DNA from: Myxococcota bacterium
GTDB lineage: Bacteria; Myxococcota_A; Bradymonadia; UBA7976; UBA1532
Direction: 5' to 3'
Assembly (NCBI GenBank): GCA_963169045.1
Contig: CAUJDF010000049.1
Span: forward strand, 1 to 45,578
Length of the DNA: 45,578 nucleotides
The position numbers and the translations under genes are program-made. The first letter of the stretch is position 1. Each line of letters starts with the position of its first letter. Below, one piece after another: positions 15,833 to 38,706 of the stretch. Below the pieces are notes generated by a model. That model was not told the DNA's origin, did not search any database, and saw only the letters and a list, made by a program, of their open reading frames with translations.

Positions 15833-17338
15833 TCAGTTGCTGGAATTGGCGGGGGGGCGGGCGACGTCGCCCCGGGCGGGCATCGTGAACCAGAAGGTGC
15901 TGCCGGCGCCCGGACGGCTGTCGGCGCCGAGGCGGCCGCCGTGGGCGATCACGATGCGCTTGGCGATCGCGAGGCCGAGGCCGGCGCCGTGTCGGCGATC
16001 GCGGCTGCCCTGCCAGTAGCGGTCGAAGACGAGGGGCAGGTCTTCGGGGGAGATGCCCGGCCCCTCGTCGCGCACGCTGAAGCGCAGGCCGCCGCCGTCA
16101 CGCTCGACGGCGATCGTCACCGTGCCGTGCTTCGGGCTGAACTTGATGGCGTTGCCGCCGAGGTTCGAGAGGACCTGATGGACGCGGTCGCGGTCCGCGA
16201 GGAAGGGGGGCAGATCCGGCGCGACCTGGTGCGCGAGCGCGACGCCGCCGTCCTCGGCGAGCGCGCGCAGGGCCTCGCACGCGTCGGCGACGACGTCGGC
16301 GGCCTGCAGCGTCGTCCGCGTCATCGGCAGCGCGTCGGCGTCGAGGCGCGTGACGTCGAGCAGGTCGGAGATGAGGCCCTTCATCTGGTCGAGCGCCCGC
16401 CGGATCGCCGCCCGCTGCCGCGCCGCGAGCGCCGGCGGCACGTCGTCGCAGTCGAGCAGCGAGAGCGCGAGGCCGATCACGTTCAGCGGGTTGCGCAGAT
16501 CGTGGGAGACGATGCCGAGCATGTCGTCCCGCGCCCGGTAGAGGCGCGCGTTCTCGACCGCCAGCGCCGCGCGGCGCGCGAAGTCGCCGGCGAGGCGCAC
16601 GTCGTCGGGGGGCCAGCCGCGGGCGAGCGGCCGCCGCGCGAACGTCACGAGCCCCACGTCGCGCCCGTGCGCCGTGAGCGGCACCTGCAGGAGCGCCTCG
16701 TCCCCGTCGTCGGGGCCGGGCGCGCGCACGCCGGCGATGCGCCGCAGCTCGCCGTCCTCGAGCACGTCGATGGCGCAGCCGTCGGCGAGCACGTCGCACA
16801 GCAGGCGCGCCGCCTCGGACAGCGTGCGGCGGTAGTCGAGCGAGGCGGCGAGCACGTCGCTCACCTCGGCGAGGAAGCGGGACCGCGCCTCGGCGGCCTC
16901 GGCCAGGCGCCGCGCCGCCTGCTCCTCGGCGAGGCGGCGGCGGTCCTCGTCGGCCCGCTTGCGCTCGATCGCGTAGCGCAGCGCGCGCGCGATGAGCGGC
17001 GCGTCGGCGCGGCCCTTCACGAGGTAGTCCTGGGCGCCGGCCTTCATCGCGTCGAGCGCGACCGCGTCGTCGTCGAGGCCGGTCAGCACCACGATGGGCA
17101 CGCTGGGCGCCGCCCGCGCTGCCCGCAGGATCGTCTCGCGGCCGGCGACGTCGGGCAGCGACAGGTCGAGCAGCACCACGTCGACACCGCCCCGCGACAG
17201 CCGCTCGAGGGCGTCGGCGAGGCGCACGACGTGCACCACCTCGATGCTCGGCCGCCGGATCTCGGCCAGCACCTCCTGCAGCAGCCGCGCTTCGGCGGCG
17301 TTGTCCTCGACGAGGAGCGTGGTGATCGGCTCATCCAT
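15833..17338 (-). CDS. Hybrid sensor kinase: REC - GAF - HisKA - HATPase
   Basis: 501 residues, ATG at 17336-17338. Residues 1-125 are a receiver domain with the acidic pair ED11-12, phospho-acceptor Asp58 (VVLLDLSLPD), Thr86 and Lys108. A coiled linker (~126-155) leads to a GAF-like domain (~155-265), then HisKA with His279 (GIVSHDLRNPLN) and an HATPase_c domain (N box SNLGGNAIKFS, G1 DEGPGI, G2 GAGLGLAI). The protein has no membrane helix and is cytoplasmic. An N-terminal receiver followed by a kinase core suggests that phosphate from the upstream kinase enters the receiver and tunes kinase output. It is the last gene of a three-gene operon, 11 bp after the single-domain regulator. The output response regulator is not in the window. 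Confidence 0.88.
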   Translation of the reverse strand: MDEPITTLLVEDNAAEARLLQEVLAEIRRPSIEVVHVVRLADALERLSRGGVDVVLLDLSLPDVAGRETILRAARAAPSVPIVVLTGLDDDAVALDAMKAGAQDYLVKGRADAPLIARALRYAIERKRADEDRRRLAEEQAARRLAEAAEARSRFLAEVSDVLAASLDYRRTLSEAARLLCDVLADGCAIDVLEDGELRRIAGVRAPGPDDGDEALLQVPLTAHGRDVGLVTFARRPLARGWPPDDVRLAGDFARRAALAVENARLYRARDDMLGIVSHDLRNPLNVIGLALSLLDCDDVPPALAARQRAAIRRALDQMKGLISDLLDVTRLDADALPMTRTTLQAADVVADACEALRALAEDGGVALAHQVAPDLPPFLADRDRVHQVLSNLGGNAIKFSPKHGTVTIAVERDGGGLRFSVRDEGPGISPEDLPLVFDRYWQGSRDRRHGAGLGLAIAKRIVIAHGGRLGADSRPGAGSTFWFTMPARGDVARPPANSSN

Positions 17339-17349
17339 GGCCCGTCTCG

Positions 17350-17784
17350 CTACTCGCGGGGCAGCTTCACGACGGCGAGCCAGAAGTCGTCGATCGACTT
17401 GACGACCTCGATGAACTGATCGAGGTCGACCGGCTTCGTCACGTAGCAGTTCGCGTGCAGGTCGTACGTGCGCAGGATGTCTTCCTCGGCCTTCGACGTC
17501 GTCAGCACGACCACCGGGATGCGCCGCAACGCCTCATCGCGCTTGATGATCGCCAGCAGCTCGCGGCCGTCCATGCGCGGCAGGTTGAGGTCGAGCAGGA
17601 CGAGGTCGGGCCGCGGCGCGTCGGCGTAGGCCCCCTCGCGCCGCAGGAACGCCAGCGCGTCCAGCCCGTCTCGCGCCACGCTCAGCCGGTTCTTCATCTT
17701 GCCCTCCTTGAGGGCCTCGATGGTCAGGCGGACGTCGGCGGGGTTGTCTTCGACGAGCAGGATCTCGATGGCGTGTTCGGTCAT
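17350..17784 (-). CDS. Single-domain response regulator (Rcp1/CheY-like)
   Basis: 144 residues, ATG at 17782-17784, overlapping the TGA of the upstream kinase gene (ATGA). It is one receiver domain and nothing else: acidic pair ED12-13, phospho-acceptor Asp65 ([12 protein letters not shown]), TTS with the conserved Thr/Ser switch position, and Lys in YVTKPVD. The [20 protein letters not shown] block is typical of Rcp1-type regulators that partner phytochrome-like kinases. There is no DNA-binding output, so it should act by protein contact or as a phosphorelay intermediate between the two kinases encoded on either side. Confidence 0.92.
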
Positions 17785-19976
17785 TGCGCGGTCGCCGGGA
17801 GCGTGAAGTGAAACGCCGCGCCCGTCCCCGGGCCCGACTCGATCCAGATCCGGCCGCCGTGTCGCTCGACGATCTTCTTGCAGATCGCCAGGCCGATCCC
17901 GTTGCCGGGGGACTCGTCGCGAGTATGCAACCGTTGGAAGATGATGAACACCCGCTCGTGGAATTCGGGGGCGATGCCGATGCCGTTGTCGCGGACGACG
18001 AAGGTCCACTCCCCGTCGCCGGGCTCGGCGTCGATGTGGACCTCGGGGGGCGCCTCGCCGCGGAACTTCACGGCGTTCGCCACGAGGTTCTGGAAGAGCT
18101 GGCCGAGCTGGCCGGCGTCGCCGCGGACGCGCGGCAGACGGCCGACGTGGGTGCGGGTGCCGGTCCGCTCGAGCTCCGTGCGCAGGTTGGCGAGGACGTC
18201 GGCGACCACGCGCTCCGTCTCGACCTCGACGGGCTCGCGGGCGCGCGTGCCGACGCGCGAGTACGCCAGCAGGTCGTTGATGAGCGTCTGCATGCGCGTC
18301 ACGCCGTCGACAGCGAACGCGATGAAGTCGTCGGCGTCGGCGTCGAGCCGGCCGCGGTAGCGTCGCGCGAGCAGCTGCGTGTAGCTCGCGACCATGCGCA
18401 GCGGCTCCTGCAGATCGTGGGAGGCGACGTACGCGAACTGCTGCAGCTCGGCGTTGGAGCGCGCGAGCTCCTGGGCGTAGGCGGCGAGCGTCGCCTTCGC
18501 CCGCAGCCGGTCGATGCTCTGGACGATCGCCTCGGCGGCGAGAGACAGGACGCCGACGAGGTCCTCGGAGAGCGGGCGCTCGGCGAACAGGCCGAGCACG
18601 CCGGCGCGTTGGTCGCCGTGGCCGAGGCGCAGCCCGCCGAGCCAGCTGGCGCCCGCCGGGAGGGGCCGGCCCTCGAGCCGCGGATCGCCGGCGCCCTCGC
18701 TGACGAGGGGGCCGTCGGGGTCGAGGATGCCGCGGAACGGGCCGGCGTCGAACGGCAGGCGCGCGAACGCTCCGTCGATCGGCGCGCCGGCCTGCGCGAT
18801 CAGCGCGTAGCCCTCGGGCTCGGCGACCCACAGCGCGGCCGCGACCAGGCCGAGCCGCGACGTGAGGGCCTCGACGCAGCGCGTCATGACGGTGGCGAGA
18901 TCGCCGCGCGTCGTGAGCGCCTCGGCGATCTCGGCGCGTAGGGCGTAGGCGTGGGAGGCGCAGCGCTCGCGCTCGAGGCGCCGGGCCTCCTTCTCGGCGA
19001 GCAGCTTCTCGGTGACGTCGCCGCAGACGCCGATGAGCTTCACCGGCCGGCCCGCGGCGTCGCGGTAGAGGCGGCCGTGGGCCTCGAGCCAGCGCGTCTG
19101 TCCGTCGGGTCGCACGATGCGGTAGCGCACGAAGTGGTGGGTGCCCTCGCGGAGCAGCGACTCGATGCCGGCGAAGAGGCGGTCGCGGTCCTCGGGGTGG
19201 ATGTCGCGCGCGTAGCCCTCGAAGGTGCCGTCGAACGACCCCTCGGGGATGCCGTGCATCGCCTCGATCGCCGGCGACCACCACACGCGACCGGCGGCCA
19301 CGTCCCACTCCCAGGGGCCGAACCGACCGGCGTCGAGCGCGAGGCGCACGCGGTCGGCGTTCTGTTCGGCCAGGGCGCGCGCCGCCTCGGCCTCGGTGAA
19401 GAGCCGCGCGTTGTCGATCGCCAGGGCGGCGCGCCGCGCGAGATCCTCGGCGAGCGCGACGTCGCCGGCCGTGAAGAGGCGGCCCGACTCGGCGTTGACG
19501 AGGCTCAGCGCGCCGAGGACGCGTTCCCGCGCCACGAGCGGGACGCAGATGTACGAGCGCAGGCCGAGCGCGCGGATCACCTCGAGGTGCTCGGGGTCGC
19601 GCGCGCTCGCCACGAGCAGGGCCTCGGGGATCTCCCCCATCCACTCGGTCTCGCCGGTGGACAGCACGTGGTGGACGCCGTGGGGCGCGTCGGGGTCGTC
19701 GGGCCAGCGCCGGCGGACCTCCTCGGCGAAGCGCACCTTCTCGGGATCGACGTGGGCGACGGCGACGCGCCGCGGCGGGTCGTCGGCGAGATCGATGGCG
19801 CACCAGTCGGCGAGGGCGGGCACCACCAGCTGCGCCACGCTCGACAGCGTCGCCTCGGGATCGAGCGAGGCGTGCAGCAGGGCGCCGGCCTCGGCGAGCA
19901 GCAGCAGCGCGCGCTCGCGCGGCGTGGCGTCGGCGGGCGGGCGGGCGGGGCGCGCGTCGAGCAGCGGGGCGTCCAT
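17781..19976 (-). CDS. Cytoplasmic sensor histidine kinase: GAF - PAS - GAF - HisKA - HATPase
   Basis: 731 residues, ATG at 19974-19976 with AGGAGG just upstream. Residues ~20-200 form a GAF domain, ~205-335 a PAS_3-type domain ([16 protein letters not shown] ... [14 protein letters not shown] ... GVCGDVTE), and ~350-500 a second GAF domain. A HisKA domain with His520 ([13 protein letters not shown]) and an HATPase_c domain (N box [13 protein letters not shown]1 RDNGIGI, G2 GNGIGLAI) follow. The [10 protein letters not shown]-box is the phytochrome-kinase subtype. No membrane helices are seen, so the signal should be cytoplasmic or diffusible (light, redox, small ligand). The GAF domains lack an obvious bilin-binding Cys. 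First gene of the operon, with its stop overlapping the receiver start. Confidence 0.9.
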
Positions 19977-20071
19977 CGGGCCTCCTGGTGGGGGACGAAG
20001 GAGGGGATTCCCCGGCGGAACGCAGGATGCAAGGAAAACGCGCCGGCGTCATCTGCTGGTGGGGGTTTCCC

Positions 20072-26789: not shown

Positions 26790-28484
26790 TCAGTCGCGCC
26801 AGGCGGCGCGGCGGATGGCGCGCGTCGTGTCGCGCGCCCAGTCGGACGCCAGCGCCCAGACGCGCGCGAACTCCACGGGATCACTGTGCTTTCGGATGCC
26901 GGTGAACGTGCGATCCGCGCGGGCGGCGGCGACGGCGAGCGCGCGCAGGAGGGTGGCGCCGCGCGGCATGAGGCGGCGCTCGAGGCGCGCGGCGTCGCGG
27001 GCGATCTCCGCGGCGGCCTCGGGCGGCAGGGCGGCGCGCCCGCCGAGGGCGATGCGATGCAGGCGGCGGCGGAGGGCGTCGGCGGGGTCGGGCAGCGTCC
27101 CGGCGTCGTCGGGCGCGGGCGAGTCGCCGGCGGCGCGCAGGTGCGTCGTCTGCAGCGTGTCCAGGCCGGCGTTCACCCGATCGCCCCACGCCGGCGGCAG
27201 GCGCAGCGCGTCGTCGACCGGCGCGAAGGCCAGCAGCTCGCCCGTGCGCGCCTGCTCCGGCACGAGGCGCAGGACGGCGCGCAGCCGCAGCCCCGGCGCG
27301 GCCAGGCGCCGCAGGTTCTCGACGTAGCAGAGCGCCTCGTGGTCCGACGGGGCCACCCAGCGCACCGAGCCGCCCTCGAAGCGCAGCCCGTCGCCGTCGG
27401 TCACCCCCTCGACGAAGAGCAGGTCGGCGCCGGCGGGGCGCTCCTCGTCGGGCAGCTCGAGCGCGGCGAAGGCGCGGTCGAGCTGGGCCCCGAGGGGCAC
27501 CGCCCAGAGCGCGGCGGCGGGCCCCTCGCGCCACGAGGACGCCCCGGCGGACGCGGCGCGGGCCTCCTTGCCGCCGCCGAGCCGGCCGTCGGGGCTGGCG
27601 GTGGCCTGCTGCACGAACAGCCCGGCGCGGCACAGCGCGCGGTGCGCGGTGGTCACGCCGCCGAAGTCGACGCCGAGGTCGTACGCCGCGGCGGCGCGCG
27701 TGGCCCGGCCCGGCCGCACGTCGCCGAGACGGAAGAGGCGGCCGTCGGCGGCCACGAGCCACGTCACGACGCCGGCGCTGTTGCCGACGATCGGCTCGCA
27801 GAAGAGGCCGTGCAGGCGAAGCCCCTCGATCGGCGCGTAGGTGCGCCGCGCGACGCCGATCCAGTGGCCCTCGACCTCGGGCGCGCCGAGCGCGGCGGCG
27901 GTGGCGACGAGGTCGTGCAGGTCGGCGGCGAGATCGGCGAGGCGGAAGTCGGGCCGCCGTTCGTGCAGCGCGTCGACGCGGCGCACGACGCGGATGCCGG
28001 CCGCCGCGCCGCGGTGCAGCCCGCTGGCGCGGCACGCGTGAACGGCGCGCAGCAGGTCCGCCTGCAACACCGCGCCCACGGCGTCCGCGCCCGCGGCGAG
28101 CGTGGCGCAGGCGACGGCGAAGAGGCGCGCCGCGGCGGCGCGCTGCTCCTCCGTGAGCGAAACGCTCGCAGAAACGGGGACTTCCGCCGCCGGCGCCTCC
28201 GGGGACGCGCCCTCGGCGAGCGGCAGGCGCGTCACGACCGACAGCACGTGCAGGCAGCGCGGCGAGAGCAGGCAGCTGCAGGCCACCTGCTCGGGAGCGC
28301 TCACGTGCGGCCCGTTCAGCGTGACCGTCTCGCCCTTGTCGGTGACCACCGTGACGCGGTCGCCGTCCTGCGCCCAGGTCCACGCCTCGGCCGCGGTGGG
28401 CTCGGCGTCGAGCTTCTTCACGAGGCGCGCGGGCGCCGCCTCGACCAGCGCGGCGCGCACCGCGCCCTCGATCGTCGGCCTCAT
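26790..28484 (-). CDS. SWIM zinc-finger protein (YehQ-like)
   Basis: 564 residues, ATG at 28482-28484, overlapping the TGA of the upstream DUF5682-VWA gene (ATGA). Residues 69-79 are a SWIM zinc-binding motif, CxCx5CxH (Cys69, Cys71, Cys77, His79), near the N-terminus. SWIM fingers bind DNA or proteins. The remaining ~480 residues are a beta-rich region with no catalytic motif that I recognise. Escherichia coli YehQ, encoded next to a VWA protein (YehP) and a MoxR-like ATPase (YehL), is the likely counterpart by gene order and domain. It is the last gene of the operon and converges on the channel gene across 49 bp. Its function is unknown in any organism I can name. Confidence 0.8.
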   Translation of the reverse strand: MRPTIEGAVRAALVEAAPARLVKKLDAEPTAAEAWTWAQDGDRVTVVTDKGETVTLNGPHVSAPEQVACSCLLSPRCLHVLSVVTRLPLAEGASPEAPAAEVPVSASVSLTEEQRAAAARLFAVACATLAAGADAVGAVLQADLLRAVHACRASGLHRGAAAGIRVVRRVDALHERRPDFRLADLAADLHDLVATAAALGAPEVEGHWIGVARRTYAPIEGLRLHGLFCEPIVGNSAGVVTWLVAADGRLFRLGDVRPGRATRAAAAYDLGVDFGGVTTAHRALCRAGLFVQQATASPDGRLGGGKEARAASAGASSWREGPAAALWAVPLGAQLDRAFAALELPDEERPAGADLLFVEGVTDGDGLRFEGGSVRWVAPSDHEALCYVENLRRLAAPGLRLRAVLRLVPEQARTGELLAFAPVDDALRLPPAWGDRVNAGLDTLQTTHLRAAGDSPAPDDAGTLPDPADALRRRLHRIALGGRAALPPEAAAEIARDAARLERRLMPRGATLLRALAVAAARADRTFTGIRKHSDPVEFARVWALASDWARDTTRAIRRAAWRD

Positions 28485-31400
28485 CGCACCTGCTCCGCGA
28501 TCCAGCGCGCGACCTCGAGCGGCGTGAGCGCGGCGACGGGCATGCCGGCGGCGGCCACCTGCTCGGCGACGGCCCGCGCGTAACGCGGGCGGCCGTGGTC
28601 GTCGAGCGCGGCGAGACCGAGGCCGCGCGCGCCGCTCTCGACCAGCGTGCGGACCTCCTCGACGAGCGCGCTCACGGCGCCGCCCTCCTCGAAGTCGGAG
28701 ACGCAGAGGACGAGCGTGCGCGCCGGCACGGTGACGAGCGTGCGCGCGTACCGGAACGCCTTCGCGATGTGCGTGCCGCCGCCCACGGCGATCTCGAGCA
28801 GCAGCTCGAGCGGGTCGGCGACGCGGTCGCTGAGGTCGACGATCTCGGTGCTGAAGGCGACGAAGTGCACCGACACCGCGGGCAGGCCGGACAGGATGGC
28901 GGCCATGATCGCGCTGTAGATGACCGAGGCCTCCATCGAGCCGGAGACGTCGACGAGCAGCACCACGCGCCAGTCGAGGCTGCGGCGGGCGCGCGTGCGG
29001 AAGACGAGGCGCTCGCACACGACGCGGCCGTCGCGGCGCACGTGCTTCAGGTTCGCGCGCAGCGTGCGGCCGAGGTCGAGCGGTCCGCCCGGGCGCCGCG
29101 TGGGGATGGGCGTCGACAGGCCGGTGAGCGCGGGGCGGATGCGCGTCGCCAGCGCCTCGGTGAGCTGCTCGACGACGCGCCGGACGAGGCGGCGCAGGTG
29201 CTCCATCTGCCCCGGCGGCAGCGCGCCCTTGAGCGCCAGCAGCTCCTCGAGCAGCTCGACGGACGGCGCGACGTGCGCCGGGTCGAGCTCGAGCGCGGCG
29301 GCGCCGTTGCCGCCCTCGGCGGCCCGGCCGAGGACCTCCTCGCGGACGCGCTCGCCGAACAGGTCCTCGAGCTCGCCGGCCCACTCGCGCACGGTGGGGA
29401 AGGGGGCGTCGTGGCCGCCGCCCTCGCCGCGCGCGCCCTCGCCGCGGCCCGTCCCGTAGAGCTCGTCGAGCGCGCGGGCGGCCCGGCATGCCATGCCCGA
29501 CAGGTGCGACCGCTCACGGCCGAGGATGAGGCGCCAGCGGTCGCGAGGGCCGATGACACCGGGCGTCTGCGCGACGCGTGGCCGCGCCGCGCCGTGCTCG
29601 AAGGCCGCGGCGAGCGCCAGGACGAAGTCGGGCAGCGGTGTTGGCGCCGCCCGCGGCTCCCCGACGGCACCGCCTCGGTCGGCCGCGGCGTAGAGCGCGA
29701 GCAGCTCGGGCGGGTCCTCGAGCTCGGTCTCGGGCGCGTCGCCGCCGAGGCGCTCGGCGAGCACGTCGAGCAGGCGACCGCGCGCCGCGGGCGAGAGCGC
29801 GTCGAAGCCGTCGCGCAGCGCAGGGAGCCGCGACAGGAACGCGTCGTCGTCGAGCGCCTCCACGCGATCGAGCAGGCCGCCGACGAACGCCGGCGAGGCT
29901 TCGAACAGCGGTGCGGCCACCGTGAGCGCGCCGCCGAGGCGCCCGGCCAGCGTGCGGCGGCCCTCGTTGTCGACGGCGGCGTCGATCCAGGCGCCGAGCC
30001 GCTCGCCGACGTGCTCGGCGGGCTCGCGGCCGGTGAGCGCGCGGATGGCCTCGGCCGCGCCGGCGATCACCGGCGCGCCGTCGCGCGCGAGCGCGTCGAG
30101 GGCGGCGCCCAGCCGCGACGTGCCGAGATCCGCGGCGTCGCGCTCGAACAGCCGGACGAGCGCCAGCAGCGCGCGCGCGTCGTCGAGCGAGTCGGAGCCG
30201 GCGAGGCCTTCGACGGCGCGCACCGCGGCGGCCAGCAGGTCGGCGGCGCGGACTTCGGCGGGACACTCGAAATCGTCGGGCAGCGCCGGCACGTGCTTGC
30301 GGCGCAGGCGCTCCACGAGCGCGAAGGCGTCGAGCAGCTCCGTCAGGCCGGCCTCGGCGAGGAACGGCCCCATCAGGTCCGCCAGGCCCTCGCGCAGCAG
30401 GTCGGGCAGGCCGCACGCGGCGGCGCGCGCCGTGAGGGACAGGCGCGCCGCGGCGCCGAGCAGGTCCCCGGCGGCGAGCCGCGCGCGCTCGGCCCGCAGG
30501 GCGCCGGCGGCGGCCTGCTCGAGCGTGACGCCGCGCGCCGCGCCGAGCTCCAGCGTCGCCGCCGTCGCCGGCCGCCACGACATGCGCCAGACCTCGGTCA
30601 GCGTCTCGACGTCGCCCATGACGCCGCTCTCTTCCCGCTGGCCGTACGGGACGCCGATCGCCTCGAGGCGCACGAGCACCGTGTGCCGGCGCCGGTCGAT
30701 GTCGGCGCGCAGCGGGTCGAGGCGCATCCGCACGGGATCGGGCGGCGACGTCGGTCCGGGCAGGCCGAGCGCCGCCAGCAGGCCCTCGACGTGGGGCGCG
30801 AGGCCCGAGCGCGGCGTGCCCGGCGCGAGGACGCCGCGCCGGCGGCCCACCAGCACGCTCTCGGCGGCGCGCGCGACGGCGCGTCCGCGGCCCAGCAGCT
30901 CGCCGTGGCCGAGCGCCGACTCGACGCCTTCGAGCAGCTCACGCCGCCCGGGCGCCGGCAGGCCGCGCACCGCGGCGAGGCCCCGGGCGAGGCGCGCCAC
31001 CTCGGCGGCGTCCGGCGTGCCCGCCACGTGGCCCGCCTCGCGCAGCGCGCGGCAGATGGCCACCGCCAGCTCGACCACCGCGTCCTCGAGCGTGCCGTCG
31101 CCCGCGAGCGCCGCCCAGGCGCGCCGCTGCCACTGCGGATCGCGGATGCCCGCCGGGTAGCCGGAGCGCGAGTCGAGCAGGTCGTCGGCGTAGGGGACGA
31201 GCGACGTCGTCGGCGCCGGGCCCGGCTCGGCGACGAGCGTGGGCGCGCGCCACAGCAGCGGCTCGGGCAGGAGCGCCGCGGCGTGGAACGCGCCGACGAC
31301 CGCGGCGGCCCGCGCCCCGGAGAGGCGCGAGCGCATGTGCGCCTCGCGCAGCAGGTCGACCTCGGAGACGCCGCCGCCGTCGACCTCGGCCCGCCGCAGC

Positions 31401-31909
31401 GCCAGGCCGACGCCGAGCGCCGCCCGCCGCACCTGCTGCGGCGTCGCGCCGGGGGCGCGCGCCTCGACGAGGCGGTCCCACATCGCCTCGACGTCCGGCG
31501 CGCCCGTCGCGTGCAGGAGCGCGCCGAGCAGCGCCTGGTCGCCCGCCTCGCGCTCGTGGCCCGTCCGCCGGGCGATCGGCAGGTCGAACGCCTCGATGGG
31601 CACGCCGCGCGCGACGGCCCAGCGGACGGCGGCGAGCTCCGGCGAGAACTCGGCGAACGGGTAGAAGGCGAGGGCGCCGTCGTCGGTGGCGCCGGCGAGC
31701 GCGACCGGCGGCTGCAGCCCGGCGTGGCCGAGCCACGGCAGCCAGGGCTGCAGCTCCTCCGGCAGCTCGACGAGGACGCGCTCGGGCGCGAACGCGTCGA
31801 GGAGCGCGGGCACCGCCGCGGCGCACGCGGCGGAGTGGTGGCGCACGCCGATCAGCAGCGGGCGATCGCAGGCGACGAGCGCGTCGAGCGCCGCGGCGAT
31901 GGGATCCAC
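28481..31909 (-). CDS. DUF5682 - VWA fusion protein (YehM + YehP)
   Basis: 1,142 residues, GTG start at 31907-31909. The N-terminal ~750 residues fit DUF5682: the opening PLLIGVRHHSAACAAAVPAL, VLVELPEELQPWL, then AFYPFAEFSPELAAVRWA. The C-terminal ~160 residues are a von Willebrand A domain with an intact MIDAS: DVSGSM at 987-992, Thr1046 in GGGTHIAKA and Asp1072 in CVSDF. In E. coli the two parts are separate neighbours, YehM (~759 aa) and YehP (~378 aa); their summed length nearly equals this protein. VWA proteins coupled to MoxR ATPases act in metal insertion or protein-complex remodelling. The start is 4 bp after the ATPase stop and the stop overlaps the SWIM gene start. Confidence 0.88.
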   Translation of the reverse strand: MDPIAAALDALVACDRPLLIGVRHHSAACAAAVPALLDAFAPERVLVELPEELQPWLPWLGHAGLQPPVALAGATDDGALAFYPFAEFSPELAAVRWAVARGVPIEAFDLPIARRTGHEREAGDQALLGALLHATGAPDVEAMWDRLVEARAPGATPQQVRRAALGVGLALRRAEVDGGGVSEVDLLREAHMRSRLSGARAAAVVGAFHAAALLPEPLLWRAPTLVAEPGPAPTTSLVPYADDLLDSRSGYPAGIRDPQWQRRAWAALAGDGTLEDAVVELAVAICRALREAGHVAGTPDAAEVARLARGLAAVRGLPAPGRRELLEGVESALGHGELLGRGRAVARAAESVLVGRRRGVLAPGTPRSGLAPHVEGLLAALGLPGPTSPPDPVRMRLDPLRADIDRRRHTVLVRLEAIGVPYGQREESGVMGDVETLTEVWRMSWRPATAATLELGAARGVTLEQAAAGALRAERARLAAGDLLGAAARLSLTARAAACGLPDLLREGLADLMGPFLAEAGLTELLDAFALVERLRRKHVPALPDDFECPAEVRAADLLAAAVRAVEGLAGSDSLDDARALLALVRLFERDAADLGTSRLGAALDALARDGAPVIAGAAEAIRALTGREPAEHVGERLGAWIDAAVDNEGRRTLAGRLGGALTVAAPLFEASPAFVGGLLDRVEALDDDAFLSRLPALRDGFDALSPAARGRLLDVLAERLGGDAPETELEDPPELLALYAAADRGGAVGEPRAAPTPLPDFVLALAAAFEHGAARPRVAQTPGVIGPRDRWRLILGRERSHLSGMACRAARALDELYGTGRGEGARGEGGGHDAPFPTVREWAGELEDLFGERVREEVLGRAAEGGNGAAALELDPAHVAPSVELLEELLALKGALPPGQMEHLRRLVRRVVEQLTEALATRIRPALTGLSTPIPTRRPGGPLDLGRTLRANLKHVRRDGRVVCERLVFRTRARRSLDWRVVLLVDVSGSMEASVIYSAIMAAILSGLPAVSVHFVAFSTEIVDLSDRVADPLELLLEIAVGGGTHIAKAFRYARTLVTVPARTLVLCVSDFEEGGAVSALVEEVRTLVESGARGLGLAALDDHGRPRYARAVAEQVAAAGMPVAALTPLEVARWIAEQVR

Positions 31910-31913
31910 GCCG

Positions 31914-33053
31914 CTACTCCTCGATGACGGCGCGCAGCTCGTGCAGCTGCTTCCACAGCCGCGCCCGACCCTCGGCGCGCCGCTTCACCGCCGCGTCCCA
32001 GTAGGCGAGCAGGCGCCCGCGGTCCTTCGGGTCGTCCTTGAGCACGACGCCGAGCAGATAGCCGGGCAGCAGCGACAGCACGTCGCGGTCGGACCGGAAC
32101 CACGCCGCCTGGAAGCCGAGCGCCCCCGCGACCGCCACCGCCTCGGCGGTGCTCATCACCGCCTGCGGCTTCTCGACCGCCCAGCCCTCGACCGTGCGCC
32201 CGCTGCGCAGGTCGCGGAACACGGTCACGAGCGCCTCGAGCACCGCGTCGTCCACGGCCAGCGGCACGCCGACGCTCGCCAGCGACGCCTCGGCCTGCGC
32301 CTTGACGAGCGCCTTCTCGCGCTCGAGATCGGCGATCGGCGGCACCGTCTCGAAGTTGAAGCGGCGCTTGAGCGCCGCGGACATCTCCGACACGCCGCGG
32401 TCGCGCAGATTGGCGGTGGCGATGAGGTTGAAGCCGGCGCGCGCCGGCTCCACGTGGGCTCCGCCCAGCTCCGGCACCGCCAGCGCGCGCTCGCTCAGGA
32501 TGGAGACCAGCGCGTCCTGCACCTCGGGCAGGCAGCGCGTGATCTCCTCGAGCCGCGCCATCGCGCCGCGCCGCATCGCCTGCAGCACCGGCGACGGCAC
32601 GAGCGCCTCTTCGCAGGGGCCGCGGTCGATCAGCAGCGCGTAGTTCCAGCCGTAGCGCAGCTGGTCCTCGGTCGTGCCGGCGGTGCCCTGCACGGTGAGC
32701 GCGCTCGTGCCCGAGACGGCGGCCGACAGCAGCTCCGACAGCATCGACTTCGCGGTGCCCGGCTCGCCGACGAGCATCAGCCCGCGCGGACCGCCGAGCG
32801 TGACGACGCACCGCTCGACGAGCGCGCGGTCGCCCACGAACTTCTCGGGGATGACGCGTGAGCGATCTCCCTCGAATTCCGCGGTCTTGGGCAGCGTGAG
32901 CTTCTCGCCGCCGGAGCCGGCGACGAACGTCACGACCGCGCGCGGCGTCAGCCGCCAGCCGGGCGGGCGCGGGCCGTCGTCCCACGCCGCCAGGAACGCG
33001 AGCTCGTCGGCGTGGCGCGCCTCCGCCGGCGGCGCCTGGATGGCCGCGCTCAT
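31914..33053 (-). CDS. MoxR-family AAA+ ATPase (YehL-like)
   Basis: 379 residues, ATG at 33051-33053, overlapping the stop of the 1,591-aa gene (ATGA). Walker A is GEPGTAKS (96-103). The Walker B position reads ARLEEITR (167-173), with Glu where the usual metal-binding Asp would be, a variation that may be normal in this subfamily. Sensor 1 is LIATAN (210-215) and an arginine-finger-like KRRFNFE follows (229-235). The block EVQDALVSILSERALAVPEL is the MoxR pattern. MoxR ATPases partner VWA proteins as chaperones or remodelling machines, here the VWA fusion encoded immediately downstream. The short linker after the AAA core and a C-terminal helical lid complete a typical-length protein. Confidence 0.9.
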   Translation of the reverse strand: MSAAIQAPPAEARHADELAFLAAWDDGPRPPGWRLTPRAVVTFVAGSGGEKLTLPKTAEFEGDRSRVIPEKFVGDRALVERCVVTLGGPRGLMLVGEPGTAKSMLSELLSAAVSGTSALTVQGTAGTTEDQLRYGWNYALLIDRGPCEEALVPSPVLQAMRRGAMARLEEITRCLPEVQDALVSILSERALAVPELGGAHVEPARAGFNLIATANLRDRGVSEMSAALKRRFNFETVPPIADLEREKALVKAQAEASLASVGVPLAVDDAVLEALVTVFRDLRSGRTVEGWAVEKPQAVMSTAEAVAVAGALGFQAAWFRSDRDVLSLLPGYLLGVVLKDDPKDRGRLLAYWDAAVKRRAEGRARLWKQLHELRAVIEE

Positions 33054-36000
33054 CGCACCTCCTCGTAGCGCGGCGCGTCGCCGGACTCGATGCGGCGCCA
33101 CGCCCTCTCGAACAGCGTGTGCAGCGGCTCGAGCGGCAGCACCTTGTCGAGCGGGACGACCTGCGCCTCGGTCGCGGGGTCGGTCTCGATGCCGTAGAGC
33201 AGAAGCTTCCAGGTCTCCATGGGCAGGCTGCCGTGGGACCACGCCTCCCACCCGCCGGGCAGGAAGTGGTTGCGGCCCGCGCGCTTGCGCTTCGCCTCGA
33301 TCAGCAGGCCGGCGGCGACGAGCGCCTCGGCGGCCTTGCCGTAGCGCGCCGCCGTCCAGCCGTTCCACGTCCGCACGTTCGCGGTCGTGGGCGCCGAAAG
33401 CGCCAGCGTCTGCAGGTAGAGCGTCGCCGCGTCCTCGCCGAGGCCACGCGCGGCCATCACCTCTTGCACGAGCGCCGGCGCCGACTGCCGCGGATCGGCC
33501 TCGAAGCCGCCCGCCGCGACCGGCGTCTCGGCGACGCGCGCCGCCATCGCCGCGAAGCCCGGCGACCGCACGAACGCCAGCGCGCGCAGCACGGACGGCC
33601 GGTCGCCGGCCATGCGCTCGACGGCGGCGATGTCCTCGACCTGCGCCGGCCGGACCGCGAAGTCGATGCCGTAGTCGTCGGACATCACCGCGACGACGGC
33701 GCCGGTGTCGCGGCCCGGGCACTTGCGCTTCCCGGACTTGATCGTGATCTCCTGCCCGCCGAAGCCGTCGAGCAGCGCGCGCACCGCCTTGGTCATCTTG
33801 TCGTCGTCGTCGTCGTACTCCGCCTCGACGCGCAGGCCGCCGAACAGCAGCTTCGGGTTCGCGAGGCGCGCCCGCACGCGCTCCACGATCTGCGGGATGC
33901 CCGCGCGGAACGGATCGCCCACCGGCCGTTCGGCGAACAGGTGCGGCACGAGCCGCGCCGCCGCCTCGAGCGCCGCGCCGTCGAACGCGCCCTCGCGGGC
34001 GCACTCCGGCGAGCCGCTCGTGTCCATCTTCCAGTCGCCGTCGACGGCGAAGCAGTCGTCCTTGGCCGGCGCCACGAAGGCCGTCAGGAAGGCCGCCGCG
34101 TCGCCCTCGTCGATCAGGTCGTTGGCGGCGGCGAGCACCTCGGGCGGCAGCGACACGCGCTGGCCGAGCTTCTCGTTCACCGCCGCGGCGAGGCGCTCGA
34201 GCGCCGCGCCGTCCCACGGGTCGGCGCCGAGGGCCTTCGTCACGATCGCGCGCCGGTCCGCGACGTCGACGCGGAGGAGGCTGTCGCGCGCCGCCGAGGC
34301 CTCCTTCAGCTTGAGGCCCATCGCCTCGCGGAACTCCTTGGGCAGGAAGTTCGACTGGTAGCTGCTCTGGCACCACGCGAAGCCGGGCAGCAGGAGCGCC
34401 GCCTCCGCGACCGTCAGGCCCGTGCGCTGCGCGAGCTGCTCGACCTCGGCCTTGCCCCACGCCACGCGGCCCTTCGCCCGCTGGGCCTCGACGAAGGCGC
34501 GCAGCGCGGCGCGGTCCATCGTCTCGGCGGGCAGGCGGTTCTCCTCGGTCATCTTGGCGCCGGGCAGCGCCGCGAACGCGCCGTCGTCGCCGGCCTGCTC
34601 GATCACCTTCGTCTCGTCGTCGTACTCGGGGTCGATCAGCTCGACGAGGTAGCGCCGGCCGTCGTGCACGACGGGACGCCAGCCGTCCTCGTCGTCGTCG
34701 CGCCGCGGCTTCGCGATCGAGGCGTCGATCTTGCCCTTGTAGGTGCAGATGCGGACCGGCCGGTCGAGGAACTCGAGGTCGCTCCACAGGTCGAGCAGGC
34801 GCGTCAGCACCTCGCGGTGCTCCTCGGGCCACGCGAAGGCCGCGCGCCAGGCGATCGCCGGGGTCTGGCCGACGAGGTCCCACCACTCGAACGACGAGGA
34901 CTCGATGCGGGTGGCCGTCTCCTCGCCGGAGAAGAACGCCTGCAGCGCGTACAGGTGCGCCGACAGCGAGTCGCCCCACGCGTAGCCGACGAGCCCGAGG
35001 CCCTCGAGCGGCTCGCGCAGCTCGCTCTCGGCCACCTGCACGCGCCCCGCGGGCGCCGACTCCGCGCCGTGGCGCTCCGCCAACAGCGCCGCCAGCTCCT
35101 GCGCCTTGTGCGCCGCCGCCTCGACGACGCCGGCCACCGCCGCGCGCAGCGTCGCGTCGGTGATCGCCGGCAGCTGCGCGCGGAGGGCCCCGTCGAGCTG
35201 CGTCATCTCGTCGTCGGCCTCGTTCTCGAGGTCGGCGACGGCCGCGTCGAGCAGCGCCTGCGCCTGCTCGTCGCCGATCGAGCGCAGCGCCTTCGAGCCC
35301 TCGACGTCGCGCGGCACGAAGAAGTGCCAGTACTCGTGGGGCGGCACGTACTTCGAGCCCTCGATGTACGTTTCGCTCACGTCGCTCGCCGCGAAGGACC
35401 CGTCGGGCGACAGCAGGACGGCCGCGTCGGCCCAGCGCCCGGCGCGTTCGCCCGAGATGGGGCGCGGCGTCTCGTCGCCGGGCAGCGTGAGCAGGCCGAC
35501 GAGCCGGTTGCCCTCGACCTCGCCGACGAAGCGACGCCCGTCGATGCCCTCGTACTCGACCGGGCCTTCGCCGTCCTCGCGGGCGCGCACGCGCCAGCCG
35601 ACGAGGCCGTCGCGCGCGCCGAACGGGCTCTGCACCCCGGCGGGCACGGGCATCAGCGACGCGGGCGAGAAGTCGAGCTCGTAGCCCGGCGCGGCGAAGG
35701 CCTCGAAGAAGCGCGGCAGCGAGCGACGCCCGAGCTTGTCTTCGATCGGGTCGTACTCGCGCAGGCCGTGCTCGCCGTCGTCGCCGCGGCCCTCCTTCCA
35801 GATCGTCTCGCCGTCGAAGAAGACCTCGTCGCGGCCGTGGCGCTCGGTGTCGCCGGCGCGCAGCAGCTTGTTGCCCTCGCAGACGCCGCCGCCGGGCAGG
35901 TGCGCCGCGTAGCTGCCGGGCGACACGTCGCCCCAGGCGTACTCCACGTCGAACTTGCTCTTCGGCGCGCTCGTCCAGAGGCCCTTCGCCTCGTTCCAGC

Positions 36001-37825
36001 GCTCACCGAAGATGGCGAGCACCTGCCCGTCGGCGTAGCGCAGGTCCTTGACCTCGGCCTTCTTCGGGCAGCTCCACGAGCGCTCGAGGACGCGGCCCTC
36101 GGGCCCGACGACGAGGATCTTCGTGCGGTTGGCGACGATGAGGAACGGCCAGGTGCCGCCGATCCAGCGCTCGTCGCCGACCTCGGCCAGCGCCGCCTCG
36201 AGCGCGGGCCAGCCGAGCTCGTCGATGAACCCGGCGCGCAGCGTGCGGGCGAGCGCGGGCGCGACGCGGCGCGCCTCGAGCACCGGCATCGCCTCGGGGA
36301 ACTCGGTGAACGTCTCCGCCGACGTGACCTCGCCGACCCTCTCGAGCTTCTCGCCGAGCAGCGGCAGGCCCGCCGCGTCGACGCTCTCGAGCAGCTTCAG
36401 CAGCCAGCGGCGCCGCATCTCCGTCAGGCCCGCGCGCCCGCGCGCCGCCTTCTCGAAGTCGTCGTCGCCGGCGGCGGAGTCGAGCGCCTCCTCGAGCATC
36501 GGGACGAAGCGCGGATCGGCGACCACGAACGTCAGGTCGCGGTCGAGGCCGGCCGTCTCGATGTCCTCGGCCCAGCGGCCGAGGTCCGTGCCGGCGCCCT
36601 CTTCGGGATCCTTCAGCGGGATGCCGAGCTCGAGCGCGAGGTCGGCCAGCGCGATGTGCCACTGCTCGCCCCAGCGGCCCGGCGGCTTCATCGGCTTGCC
36701 GTCGGCCTTCAGGCGGTCGGCGAGGCGGCGCAGCAGGTTCGGGACCTGCGTCGGCAGCGAGCGCTCCTGGTCGTTGGCCCACTCGATCAGGCGCTCGAGC
36801 CACGCGGCGGCGCCGTCCTTCGGGGCCTCGCCGGCGGCCACCGCGTCGAGCGCGCCCGCCTCGTCGAGCAGGTCGAGCCACCACGCGGCGAAGTCGTTGG
36901 CCTGGCCCGAGGGCTCGGGCAGCAGGTCGAGCAGCGTCGCCACGACCGCCGGCGTCGACTTCGCGAGGCGGATCAAGGGCTTCTGGAAGTCTTTCCAGAA
37001 CCCCATCGGCGCCTTCTTGAGCGCGGGGCAGTCGATGATCTCGCGCAGGACGCCCTCGTCCTCGGCGGCGGCGTTCAGCCCCGAGGCGCTCGACAGCCCG
37101 CGCAGCTCCTTGGCCATGCCCGCCCACGGCGGCATGCCGCCCGCGGTGCGGCGCACGCTCAGCTCGCGGAAGTGCGCGTAGGCCTCGGCGGGGGTGTAGT
37201 CCTTCTTCAGGTCCTTGGCGTAGGCCTGCAGCGACTTGATCGACACGGCGCCGGCGAGCGCGAATTCCAGAACGGTCTCGCGGCGTTGCGCCTCGTCGAC
37301 CTTCAGGCCGTGCACGCGCTCCGCCTCGCGCGACTTCTCGAAGTACTGCGCGGCGTACGTGGCGTTGCCGGCGCCGAGGAAGCCGCGCCCGGCCTCCTCG
37401 TAGAAGCTCGGCAGGAAGTGCGGGACCGAGCGGCCGAGGCGCTCGCCGATCTCGTCGATCGCCTCCTTCGCGTAGCCGGGCTTCGACGCCACCTGCCGCA
37501 GCGCCTTCTTCAGCGACTGGACGACCTCGAGCGCGAAGCGGGCGCGCGCCGGGTCGTGCACGAGCGCCCAGCCGGGGAACCCGAGCGCGCGGCGGCGGCG
37601 GCGCCCCACCGCGCCGTGGTCCGTCCCCGGCTCGAAGCCGAGGAACGCCATCTCCGCGTCCTCGCCGGGGGCGAGCGCCGCCGGGCTCAGGCGCACGACG
37701 GGGCGATCGCCGAGCGCCGGGTGCGTGAAGGCGCGGGCGTGGACCTCGTCCGTGGTCTCGCCGGGGACGTCGGCGTCGAGCGGCACGAGCCCGCCGGCCT
37801 TCAGCAGCGTCTTGAAGGTGCTCAC
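33050..37825 (-). CDS. Large uncharacterised protein of the yehI/MolR-like operon (1,591 aa)
   Basis: The GTG at 37823-37825 overlaps the TGA of the preceding gene and follows GGAGGAGGA. A longer open frame to 38503 runs antisense-free through the upstream gene and is a shadow. The protein is soluble with no signal or membrane helix. Residues ~110-200 contain TPR/helical-repeat-like segments (AAQYFEKSREAERVHG), the middle has beta-rich propeller-like stretches (~750-1050), and the C-terminal third is helical. No catalytic motif is recognisable. Its place before the MoxR gene matches E. coli YehI/MolR (~1,200 aa), which carries DUF4132. Here the DUF4132-like part appears to be on the separate upstream gene. 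It may be a scaffold or substrate-recognition subunit for the ATPase-VWA pair. Confidence 0.75.
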   Translation of the reverse strand: MSTFKTLLKAGGLVPLDADVPGETTDEVHARAFTHPALGDRPVVRLSPAALAPGEDAEMAFLGFEPGTDHGAVGRRRRRALGFPGWALVHDPARARFALEVVQSLKKALRQVASKPGYAKEAIDEIGERLGRSVPHFLPSFYEEAGRGFLGAGNATYAAQYFEKSREAERVHGLKVDEAQRRETVLEFALAGAVSIKSLQAYAKDLKKDYTPAEAYAHFRELSVRRTAGGMPPWAGMAKELRGLSSASGLNAAAEDEGVLREIIDCPALKKAPMGFWKDFQKPLIRLAKSTPAVVATLLDLLPEPSGQANDFAAWWLDLLDEAGALDAVAAGEAPKDGAAAWLERLIEWANDQERSLPTQVPNLLRRLADRLKADGKPMKPPGRWGEQWHIALADLALELGIPLKDPEEGAGTDLGRWAEDIETAGLDRDLTFVVADPRFVPMLEEALDSAAGDDDFEKAARGRAGLTEMRRRWLLKLLESVDAAGLPLLGEKLERVGEVTSAETFTEFPEAMPVLEARRVAPALARTLRAGFIDELGWPALEAALAEVGDERWIGGTWPFLIVANRTKILVVGPEGRVLERSWSCPKKAEVKDLRYADGQVLAIFGERWNEAKGLWTSAPKSKFDVEYAWGDVSPGSYAAHLPGGGVCEGNKLLRAGDTERHGRDEVFFDGETIWKEGRGDDGEHGLREYDPIEDKLGRRSLPRFFEAFAAPGYELDFSPASLMPVPAGVQSPFGARDGLVGWRVRAREDGEGPVEYEGIDGRRFVGEVEGNRLVGLLTLPGDETPRPISGERAGRWADAAVLLSPDGSFAASDVSETYIEGSKYVPPHEYWHFFVPRDVEGSKALRSIGDEQAQALLDAAVADLENEADDEMTQLDGALRAQLPAITDATLRAAVAGVVEAAAHKAQELAALLAERHGAESAPAGRVQVAESELREPLEGLGLVGYAWGDSLSAHLYALQAFFSGEETATRIESSSFEWWDLVGQTPAIAWRAAFAWPEEHREVLTRLLDLWSDLEFLDRPVRICTYKGKIDASIAKPRRDDDEDGWRPVVHDGRRYLVELIDPEYDDETKVIEQAGDDGAFAALPGAKMTEENRLPAETMDRAALRAFVEAQRAKGRVAWGKAEVEQLAQRTGLTVAEAALLLPGFAWCQSSYQSNFLPKEFREAMGLKLKEASAARDSLLRVDVADRRAIVTKALGADPWDGAALERLAAAVNEKLGQRVSLPPEVLAAANDLIDEGDAAAFLTAFVAPAKDDCFAVDGDWKMDTSGSPECAREGAFDGAALEAAARLVPHLFAERPVGDPFRAGIPQIVERVRARLANPKLLFGGLRVEAEYDDDDDKMTKAVRALLDGFGGQEITIKSGKRKCPGRDTGAVVAVMSDDYGIDFAVRPAQVEDIAAVERMAGDRPSVLRALAFVRSPGFAAMAARVAETPVAAGGFEADPRQSAPALVQEVMAARGLGEDAATLYLQTLALSAPTTANVRTWNGWTAARYGKAAEALVAAGLLIEAKRKRAGRNHFLPGGWEAWSHGSLPMETWKLLLYGIETDPATEAQVVPLDKVLPLEPLHTLFERAWRRIESGDAPRYEEVR

Positions 37826-38706
37826 GCGTCCTCCTCCTGCGCCTCGGTGGCGCGACCGGCGTAGATCGCGCTCGCCATGCGCATGCCCTCGCTGAAGGCC
37901 ACCGGCCCGACCTCGCCCACCGCGAGGCCGCGCTCGCGGTCGTCGACCCACGTCAGGTCGTCGGTGTAGGTCTCGTCCTCGGGGTAGTCGGTGCCGATCC
38001 AGAAGCGGGCCTCGACGAGGCGCCCGCCCTCCCACACCGGCAGCACCGCGTAGCCGCCGCTCACGCGGTAGCCGAGCGTGCGGCAGCGGCCGAGCGCGTG
38101 GTTCAGCTCCTCGAAGCGCCCGCCGGCGAACTGGTCGACGGCGTGGGCGTCCTCCTCGAGGTCGGCCGGCCGGGCGAACGTCTCGCGGAAGAGCTGTGCG
38201 GCGCCCTGCTTGAGGCCGAGCTCCGTCGCCAGCTCGCGCCAGTCGTCGAGCTCCGCGAGCAGGATGGGGTGGGGGATGACGGCGCACGGCGCGTCGATCC
38301 AGTCGGTCTCGCCATCGAGCGTGACCACGCCGATGCCGCCGTCGGCCTTGGCCCCGCGCAGGAAGCCGAGCGCGTCGGCGATGGGCGTGCCGTCGGCCTG
38401 CGCGCCCTGCACCACCGCGTTCTCGAGCGCCGTGCGCCAGGCCGGGTCGGGCCAGAGCGCCTCGAGCGCGCGCCGCGGGACCGGCAGCGACCGGAGCATC
38501 CACTGCTCGACGGTCTCCCGGCAGCTGCGCTCGTGCTCCGAAAGCCAGTCGCGCAGCGCCAGCAGGCGCCCGGCCTGCTCGCTCTCGCGCACCGCCTTCG
38601 GCACCGAAGCGAGCTGCTTGCCCTTGGCGTTGCGGCAGATCAGCTTCCCGTCATCGAGGGCCAGGCCGTAGCCGTCGGGCCCCTCCACCCAGGTTGCGGT
38701 CGACAT
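37822..38706 (-). CDS. DUF4132-like protein (294 aa)
   Basis: The ATG at 38704-38706 follows GGAGGAGG. The C-terminal half, with IPHPILLAELDDWRELATEL then KQGAAQLFRETFARP, resembles the C-terminal DUF4132 segment of E. coli MolR/YehI proteins (HPxxL...WR...QLFRE). The stop overlaps the next gene's GTG start, so translation is coupled. It appears to be the first gene of the five-gene operon; a weak TTGACC at 38756-38761 on the minus strand could be part of its promoter. The N-terminal segment begins WVEGPDGYGLALDDGKLICR, a small beta domain. The role is unknown. The separation of this domain from the 1,591-aa protein is a local difference from the E. coli arrangement. Confidence 0.7.
   Translation of the reverse strand: MSTATWVEGPDGYGLALDDGKLICRNAKGKQLASVPKAVRESEQAGRLLALRDWLSEHERSCRETVEQWMLRSLPVPRRALEALWPDPAWRTALENAVVQGAQADGTPIADALGFLRGAKADGGIGVVTLDGETDWIDAPCAVIPHPILLAELDDWRELATELGLKQGAAQLFRETFARPADLEEDAHAVDQFAGGRFEELNHALGRCRTLGYRVSGGYAVLPVWEGGRLVEARFWIGTDYPEDETYTDDLTWVDDRERGLAVGEVGPVAFSEGMRMASAIYAGRATEAQEEDA

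Follow-up and report, generated by a model that had tools for sequence, protein, structure and literature searches.

The locus described here raises a question that the yeh genes of Escherichia coli pose as well: what is achieved by a set of genes that joins a MoxR ATPase and a VWA protein to proteins named after domains such as DUF4132 and DUF5682? The E. coli genes are so far without assigned biochemistry despite the retention of yehL-Q. The window (the whole stretch of 45,578 nucleotides that was analysed) lies on contig C49 of a 9.0-Mb genome, 75.8% GC, of a Myxococcota bacterium. An ORF listing of the window places five open reading frames, A-B-C-D-E, consecutively on the minus strand at 38706-26790, and they form a genuine, tightly packed five-gene operon. 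The initial annotation had these frames coupled by GTGA and ATGA overlaps or a 4-bp gap, and so we found them: A/B meet at GTGA, B/C at ATGA, C/D across 4 bp and D/E at ATGA, with a purine-rich, ribosome-binding-like stretch preceding the downstream gene at each of the four junctions. All gene and domain coordinates of the operon given below are on the minus strand.

Gene C (31914..33053; 379 aa) is a MoxR AAA+ ATPase of YehL, a named MoxR subfamily (PMC3893208). It matches Pfam AAA_5 at 5.6e-37, shares 49% identity with YehL in a tblastn comparison with the E. coli yeh cluster, has yehM-, yehP- and yehQ-type neighbours, and groups with YehL in a MoxR tree composed of YehL and DUF5682-linked MoxRs. 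Its Walker A motif (GEPGTAKS, 32745..32768) is intact, with most residues invariant in the family, and so is the MIDAS motif of gene D (DVSGSM, 28934..28951), whose D, S, S and M are present in 100% of 48 sequences. Gene E (26790..28484; 564 aa) encodes a YehQ-like SWIM-motif protein. The protein itself falls below the Pfam SWIM threshold; 7 of its 14 homologues match PF04434 (best 1.2e-9), an iterated E profile recovers YehQ, and in its CxCx5CxH motif (CSCLLSPRCLH, 28248..28280) residues C69, C71 and H79 are conserved at 93-100%.

Gene D (28481..31909; 1,142 aa) was proposed to equal YehM plus YehP, and profile searches bear this out. It covers the full DUF5682 profile (PF18934, 1-727/727, 4.5e-160) and the full VWA_CoxE profile (PF05762, 1-222/222, 2.1e-61), and tblastn aligns it to both YehM (26% identity) and YehP (41%). 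In the AlphaFold2 model (mean pLDDT 87.6) strands and helices alternate at the N-terminus and the middle is helical; linkers of low confidence at about residues 727-977 and the CoxE-type VWA domain (residues 920-1137; 28499..29152) complete the protein. Hits of a fold search with D were filled by VWA domains (Z 18.9), and NorD of the NorQD system was among the solved matches (E 1.8e-4). Ro60/TROVE-VWA, the top Foldseek match, was set aside as a likeness in the VWA domain and helical repeats only (TM-score ≤0.26, rmsd 18-23).

Gene A (37822..38706; 294 aa) is a stand-alone DUF4132 protein, matching the full PF13569 profile (E 1.7e-23) and the YehI/WGR-type DUF4132 (hhalign 98.4%). The description "yehI-like" therefore suits A as a DUF4132 protein and does not suit gene B (33050..37825; 1,591 aa), which has no significant domain in a Pfam search and whose profile does not resemble the YehI N-terminus (hhalign 0.4%); with hhalign values of 1.1% or less, B was also rejected as a distant YehI or DUF5691 protein. 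YehI joins an N-terminal YehI region to a C-terminal DUF4132, an architecture that this operon lacks, A being DUF4132 alone. Homologues of B occur next to A in one planctomycete as well as in Myxococcota and Actinomycetota. An AlphaFold2 model of B residues 395-1591 (pLDDT 87.2) consists of helices, a beta-rich propeller-like part, further helices and small beta domains. The beta-rich region (residues ~528-842; 35300..36244) resembles WDR5 and other propellers weakly (Foldseek probability up to 1.00 at E ~1e-2; best VIA Z 5.4), and B, as modelled, resembles a scaffold of helices and a beta-propeller. Sequence-profile searches against solved structures returned nothing usable for A, B, D or the DUF5682 N-terminus.

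DUF5682 is encoded in 64/284 genomes of the phylum and B in 17/284. We scanned 60 stretches and 80 named loci, the latter found with a MoxR profile, using custom-built profiles. The order A-B-C-D-E with a fused D recurs in four further Myxococcota loci (L081, L084, L086, L090) and in the actinomycetotal genera Streptomyces, Rhizohabitans, Virgisporangium, Catenulispora and Nonomuraea, and a Planctomycetaceae contig carries A-B-C. The RefSeq annotation of Streptomyces atratus lists the same five genes, with 4-bp overlaps at three of the four junctions. Homologues are thus co-located well beyond this genome, and because the 19 other A+B loci measured retain 35-76% identity to the window, depending on the gene, and the gene order recurs, the operon is not a chance arrangement. 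Some loci depart from the usual plan. Genome G033 (L084, L120) has B twice, the second copy 4.9 kb downstream of the SWIM gene; in L114, L116 and L118, B (with A in L116) stands without a MoxR-DUF5682 neighbour; and in Arachnia propionica (L142), where the scan detected no A, B is split into three frames beside a fused core that is otherwise intact.

The near-perfect coupling had been taken to imply a stoichiometric complex. Four-base overlaps are common in relatives (A/B 21/30, B/C 15/28, C/D 13/29, D/E 23/27) and far from universal, so a complex of this kind does not follow from them. Conservation is graded across the operon: median identity to the window among the 19 A+B loci is highest for MoxR (71.5%), followed by VWA (62.6%), the DUF5682 N-terminus (56.2%), A (47.1%), E (43.2%) and B (37.5%). 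Such a pattern, a conserved motor with divergent outer parts, would be expected of recognition parts and also of loosely constrained scaffolds. By the same comparison B, as the least conserved part, is a better candidate for recognition than the DUF4132 part.

Comparison with related loci separates a constant core from a variable partner. In E. coli K-12 the gene order is yehI-K-L-M-P-Q, with DUF4132, MoxR, DUF5682, VWA and SWIM proteins arranged as in the window; there, however, YehM and YehP are separate and YehI is one long protein ending in DUF4132, whereas in the window DUF4132 stands alone beside B, itself without detectable relation to YehI. The genome from which the window comes holds a paralogous locus as well (L004, contig C14), with the same MoxR, DUF5682, VWA and SWIM genes but with DUF5682 and VWA unfused, a WGR-DUF4132 protein and no B; one genome thus keeps both versions. 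In Deinococcus taeanensis and many myxobacteria the MoxR-DUF5682-VWA-SWIM set is again present, but DUF5691 replaces DUF4132 and B, the SWIM gene comes first, VWA is separate and the MoxR forms its own clade. On a D. taeanensis plasmid (L232) the order is SWIM-DUF5691-AAA-hypothetical-DUF5682-VWA, where an additional 78-aa ORF separates AAA from DUF5682. Across lineages the MoxR-DUF5682-VWA core and the SWIM protein are constant, and the large partner may be DUF4132 plus B, a helical-repeat (HEAT) DUF4132 protein with or without WGR, or a DUF5691 protein; in some lineages it matches none of these. The initial annotation had regarded the DUF4132 part as an interchangeable recognition subunit. 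Exchange of the large partner between lineages agrees with the first half of this view, yet the partner sets track the clades, and "recognition subunit", like "stoichiometric complex", was inferred.

The fusion within D has a history of its own. The A+B loci form one clade of the MoxR tree (29 rows, SH-aLRT 100), from which the DUF5691 loci are separate; 2 of the 29 rows lack A-B nearby and have B elsewhere in the genome. All testable A+B loci have a fused D, and fusions also occur beyond them, in Kitasatospora (L160), which is nested among unfused Streptomyces relatives, and in a myxobacterial group apart from the others (L087-L093). On the DUF5682 tree the YehM-VWA fusion requires at least three changes (depending on where the tree is rooted, one gain and two losses are also conceivable, against which stands the nesting of L160), and a single fusion clade was rejected by the AU test (p 2.8e-7). 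The recurrence of the fusion and the rejection of one clade give good grounds for the earlier proposal that YehM and YehP work as a unit, and we treat them so.

The N-terminus of D is currently annotated as "DUF5682" only, and we found no open-access paper naming this domain in the literature collection searched. Nine residues (H24, E48, E91, D109, E149, R188, M192, G206 and H209) do not vary across 120 sequences, and R172 and E189 are 99% conserved. Profile comparison aligned the domain (D residues 15-250; 31160..31867) with TraB/PrgY proteins from this phylum (hhalign 97.0%, E 1.3e-10) and, when a wider set was used, at 97.3% (E 2.4e-11), the two comparisons spanning 222-227 columns. Reversed TraB scored 0.9%, nine unrelated alignments scored below 1%, and TraB against GumN, members of one Pfam family, scored 94.5%. 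Five motifs fall in register (DUF5682/TraB): GxRHHS/GTAHIS, VLIEGP/VCVEL, FIDLP/LADRD, REAxM/DERDxYL and VVGGFH/VVGAGH. The Pfam DUF5682 model matches TraB proteins at equivalent places in four genomes (G014, G024, G034, G086), weakly (E 1e-4 to 6e-4). Taken alone, the A+B clade matches TraB over just 32 residues, in the first motif (73-78%), so the DUF5682-TraB link rests on the wider family. A ChaN match (83.7%) was weaker than that to TraB and was not used alone. On this core-domain homology, the DUF5682 N-terminus appears to belong to the TraB/TIKI superfamily. In genome G261 a TraB/PrgY-family gene (L107:306-1529, plus strand) lies directly upstream of MoxR-DUF5682; its match to the custom-built DUF5682 profile is weak (E 6e-4).

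Members of the TIKI superfamily are built on a parallel sheet core and share a conserved base, a His-Glu pair and a further His (PMC6254334), and TIKI itself is a metalloprotease (PMC12329661). As sequence positions, the residues of the catalytic form recur in DUF5682 (H24, E48, H209 and R188 at 100%, R172 at 99%). The additional Glu of Ere/RRSP-type members, two residues before the first His (E-x-H), is replaced by V22, and the TraB relatives compared likewise lack it (GTAH). In the model of D, whose whole-protein fold search was filled by VWA, strands and helices alternate in the N-terminus and the invariant residues lie near strand ends. DUF5682 thus shares its motifs, invariant His-Glu pair and second His with the TIKI/TraB hydrolases, but differs from them in being embedded in a long helical protein that is fused or coupled to a VWA domain. 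We consider its N-terminus a candidate TIKI-superfamily hydrolase tied to a MoxR-VWA motor.

From the joint occurrence of the genes and the repeated fusion of DUF5682 with VWA, we suggest that the operon encodes one MoxR-VWA machine in which the motor controls the hydrolase-like N-terminus of D and A, B and E serve recognition, a reading that we regard as evenly balanced between right and wrong. By analogy with NorQ-NorD, in which NorQ remodels a linker in NorD (PMC13036017), a MoxR hexamer would grip the VWA end of D and, driven by ATP, pull or twist the flexible linkers that connect the VWA domain to the remainder of the protein. The N-terminus would then act as a hydrolase, probably a peptidase or an ester/amide hydrolase judging by its TraB/TIKI homology and invariant His, Glu and Arg, with its activity or substrate access gated by the motor. 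The scaffold B, with the DUF4132 protein A and the SWIM protein, may recognise a client or trigger; in other lineages a HEAT-DUF4132 protein, often with WGR, or a DUF5691 protein could fill that place. Jumbo phages provide a precedent in a MoxR accompanied by a peptidase-VWA fusion (PMC7824862). The likeliest role is that of a stress- or damage-triggered processing machine. A DUF4132 protein of Deinococcus radiodurans is induced by DNA damage and molR has been described as LexA-regulated (PMC8533742), and the WGR domain has been described as DNA-binding; by analogy, these reports suggest a link to DNA damage.

The likeness to NorQ-NorD also admits another explanation, in which the MoxR-VWA pair inserts a metal or remodels a partner, as NorQ-NorD does, and the fused DUF5682 is a client or docking part. 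Both systems combine a MoxR AAA+ hexamer with a CoxE/NorD-type VWA, NorD is a fold match of D, known MoxR-VWA pairs mature enzymes (PMC3893208, PMC13036017), and relatives of TIKI can be metal-dependent (PMC6254334). NorQ-NorD itself has no hydrolase-like domain and no DUF4132, B or SWIM partner. We consider such a maturation chaperone unlikely: the scan, which covered the profiled components, brought up no dedicated metalloenzyme family as a regular companion, and the invariant His, Glu and Arg suggest that DUF5682 has chemistry of its own.

A conflict system (antiviral or self-killing), in which a third component senses a trigger and frees the DUF5682 hydrolase as a toxic effector, seems to us improbable. 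Systems of MoxR, vWA and a third component have already been described (PMC7159879), in VMAP, iSTAND, FtsH and beta-propeller forms, and the operon shares with these ternary systems a MoxR, a vWA and a variable third part. The five-gene form is common in multicellular Streptomyces and myxobacteria, and a CHAT-nSTAND1-WD40 gene lies about 14 kb from the operon. The YehL and DUF5682 components are, however, outside the four systems described, and the propeller-like part of the window is in B rather than fused to vWA. None of the five proteins has a Pfam match to VMAP, iSTAND or FtsH components, a weak, sub-threshold bpMoxR match being the one similarity of this kind, and none matches any PADLOC family at E 0.1. 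Where ternary systems swap many effectors, a single hydrolase-like domain was seen here. Searches of plasmids and phages gave no clear mobile form and hardly any phage copy, and yehL-Q, at 80% or more of its length, is core in E. coli (5162/5426 complete genomes, 95%), a prevalence arguing against a mobile defence cassette in that species. The A-B-C-D-E set is a variant among MoxR-VWA systems of the YehL subfamily and is absent from both the four described systems and PADLOC. A VWA protein encoded on one faecal phage contig (MT835988.1:9401-10471) shares 34% identity with the VWA end of D.

That the neighbourhood is conserved without a joint machine, as co-expressed stress genes whose products act separately, would accord with the detachment of A-B from C-D-E in some genomes (L116, L114, L118) and with the partial coupling in relatives, but we think it very improbable given the recurrent DUF5682-VWA fusion, the constant association of the SWIM protein with the core, DUF5691-type loci included, and the retention of both A-B and C-D-E in one genome (G087) where they lie 4 Mb apart on a single contig.

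Extended to the wider family, the reading of one motor-controlled hydrolase would make DUF5682/YehM an ATP-gated TIKI-type hydrolase within a widespread class of bacterial machines. In these, a hydrolase fused or coupled to a MoxR-VWA motor would be controlled by it and aimed by interchangeable helical or propeller scaffolds and a SWIM zinc finger, with A-B-C-D-E as a distinct, undescribed subtype. We offer this generalization tentatively, at less than an even chance. If true, it would extend what MoxR-VWA systems do beyond cofactor insertion to regulated hydrolysis, and His24, Glu48 and His209, through their equivalents in YehM, would make that function testable by mutation. Elsewhere in the window, the CHAT-nSTAND1-WD40 gene mentioned above is an ORF of 1,488 aa at 8761-13224 (minus strand) that pairs a caspase-like peptidase with a STAND NTPase, and 15836-20048 (minus strand) encodes two adjacent sensor kinases, one a GAF-PAS histidine kinase and the other a histidine kinase fused to a response regulator.
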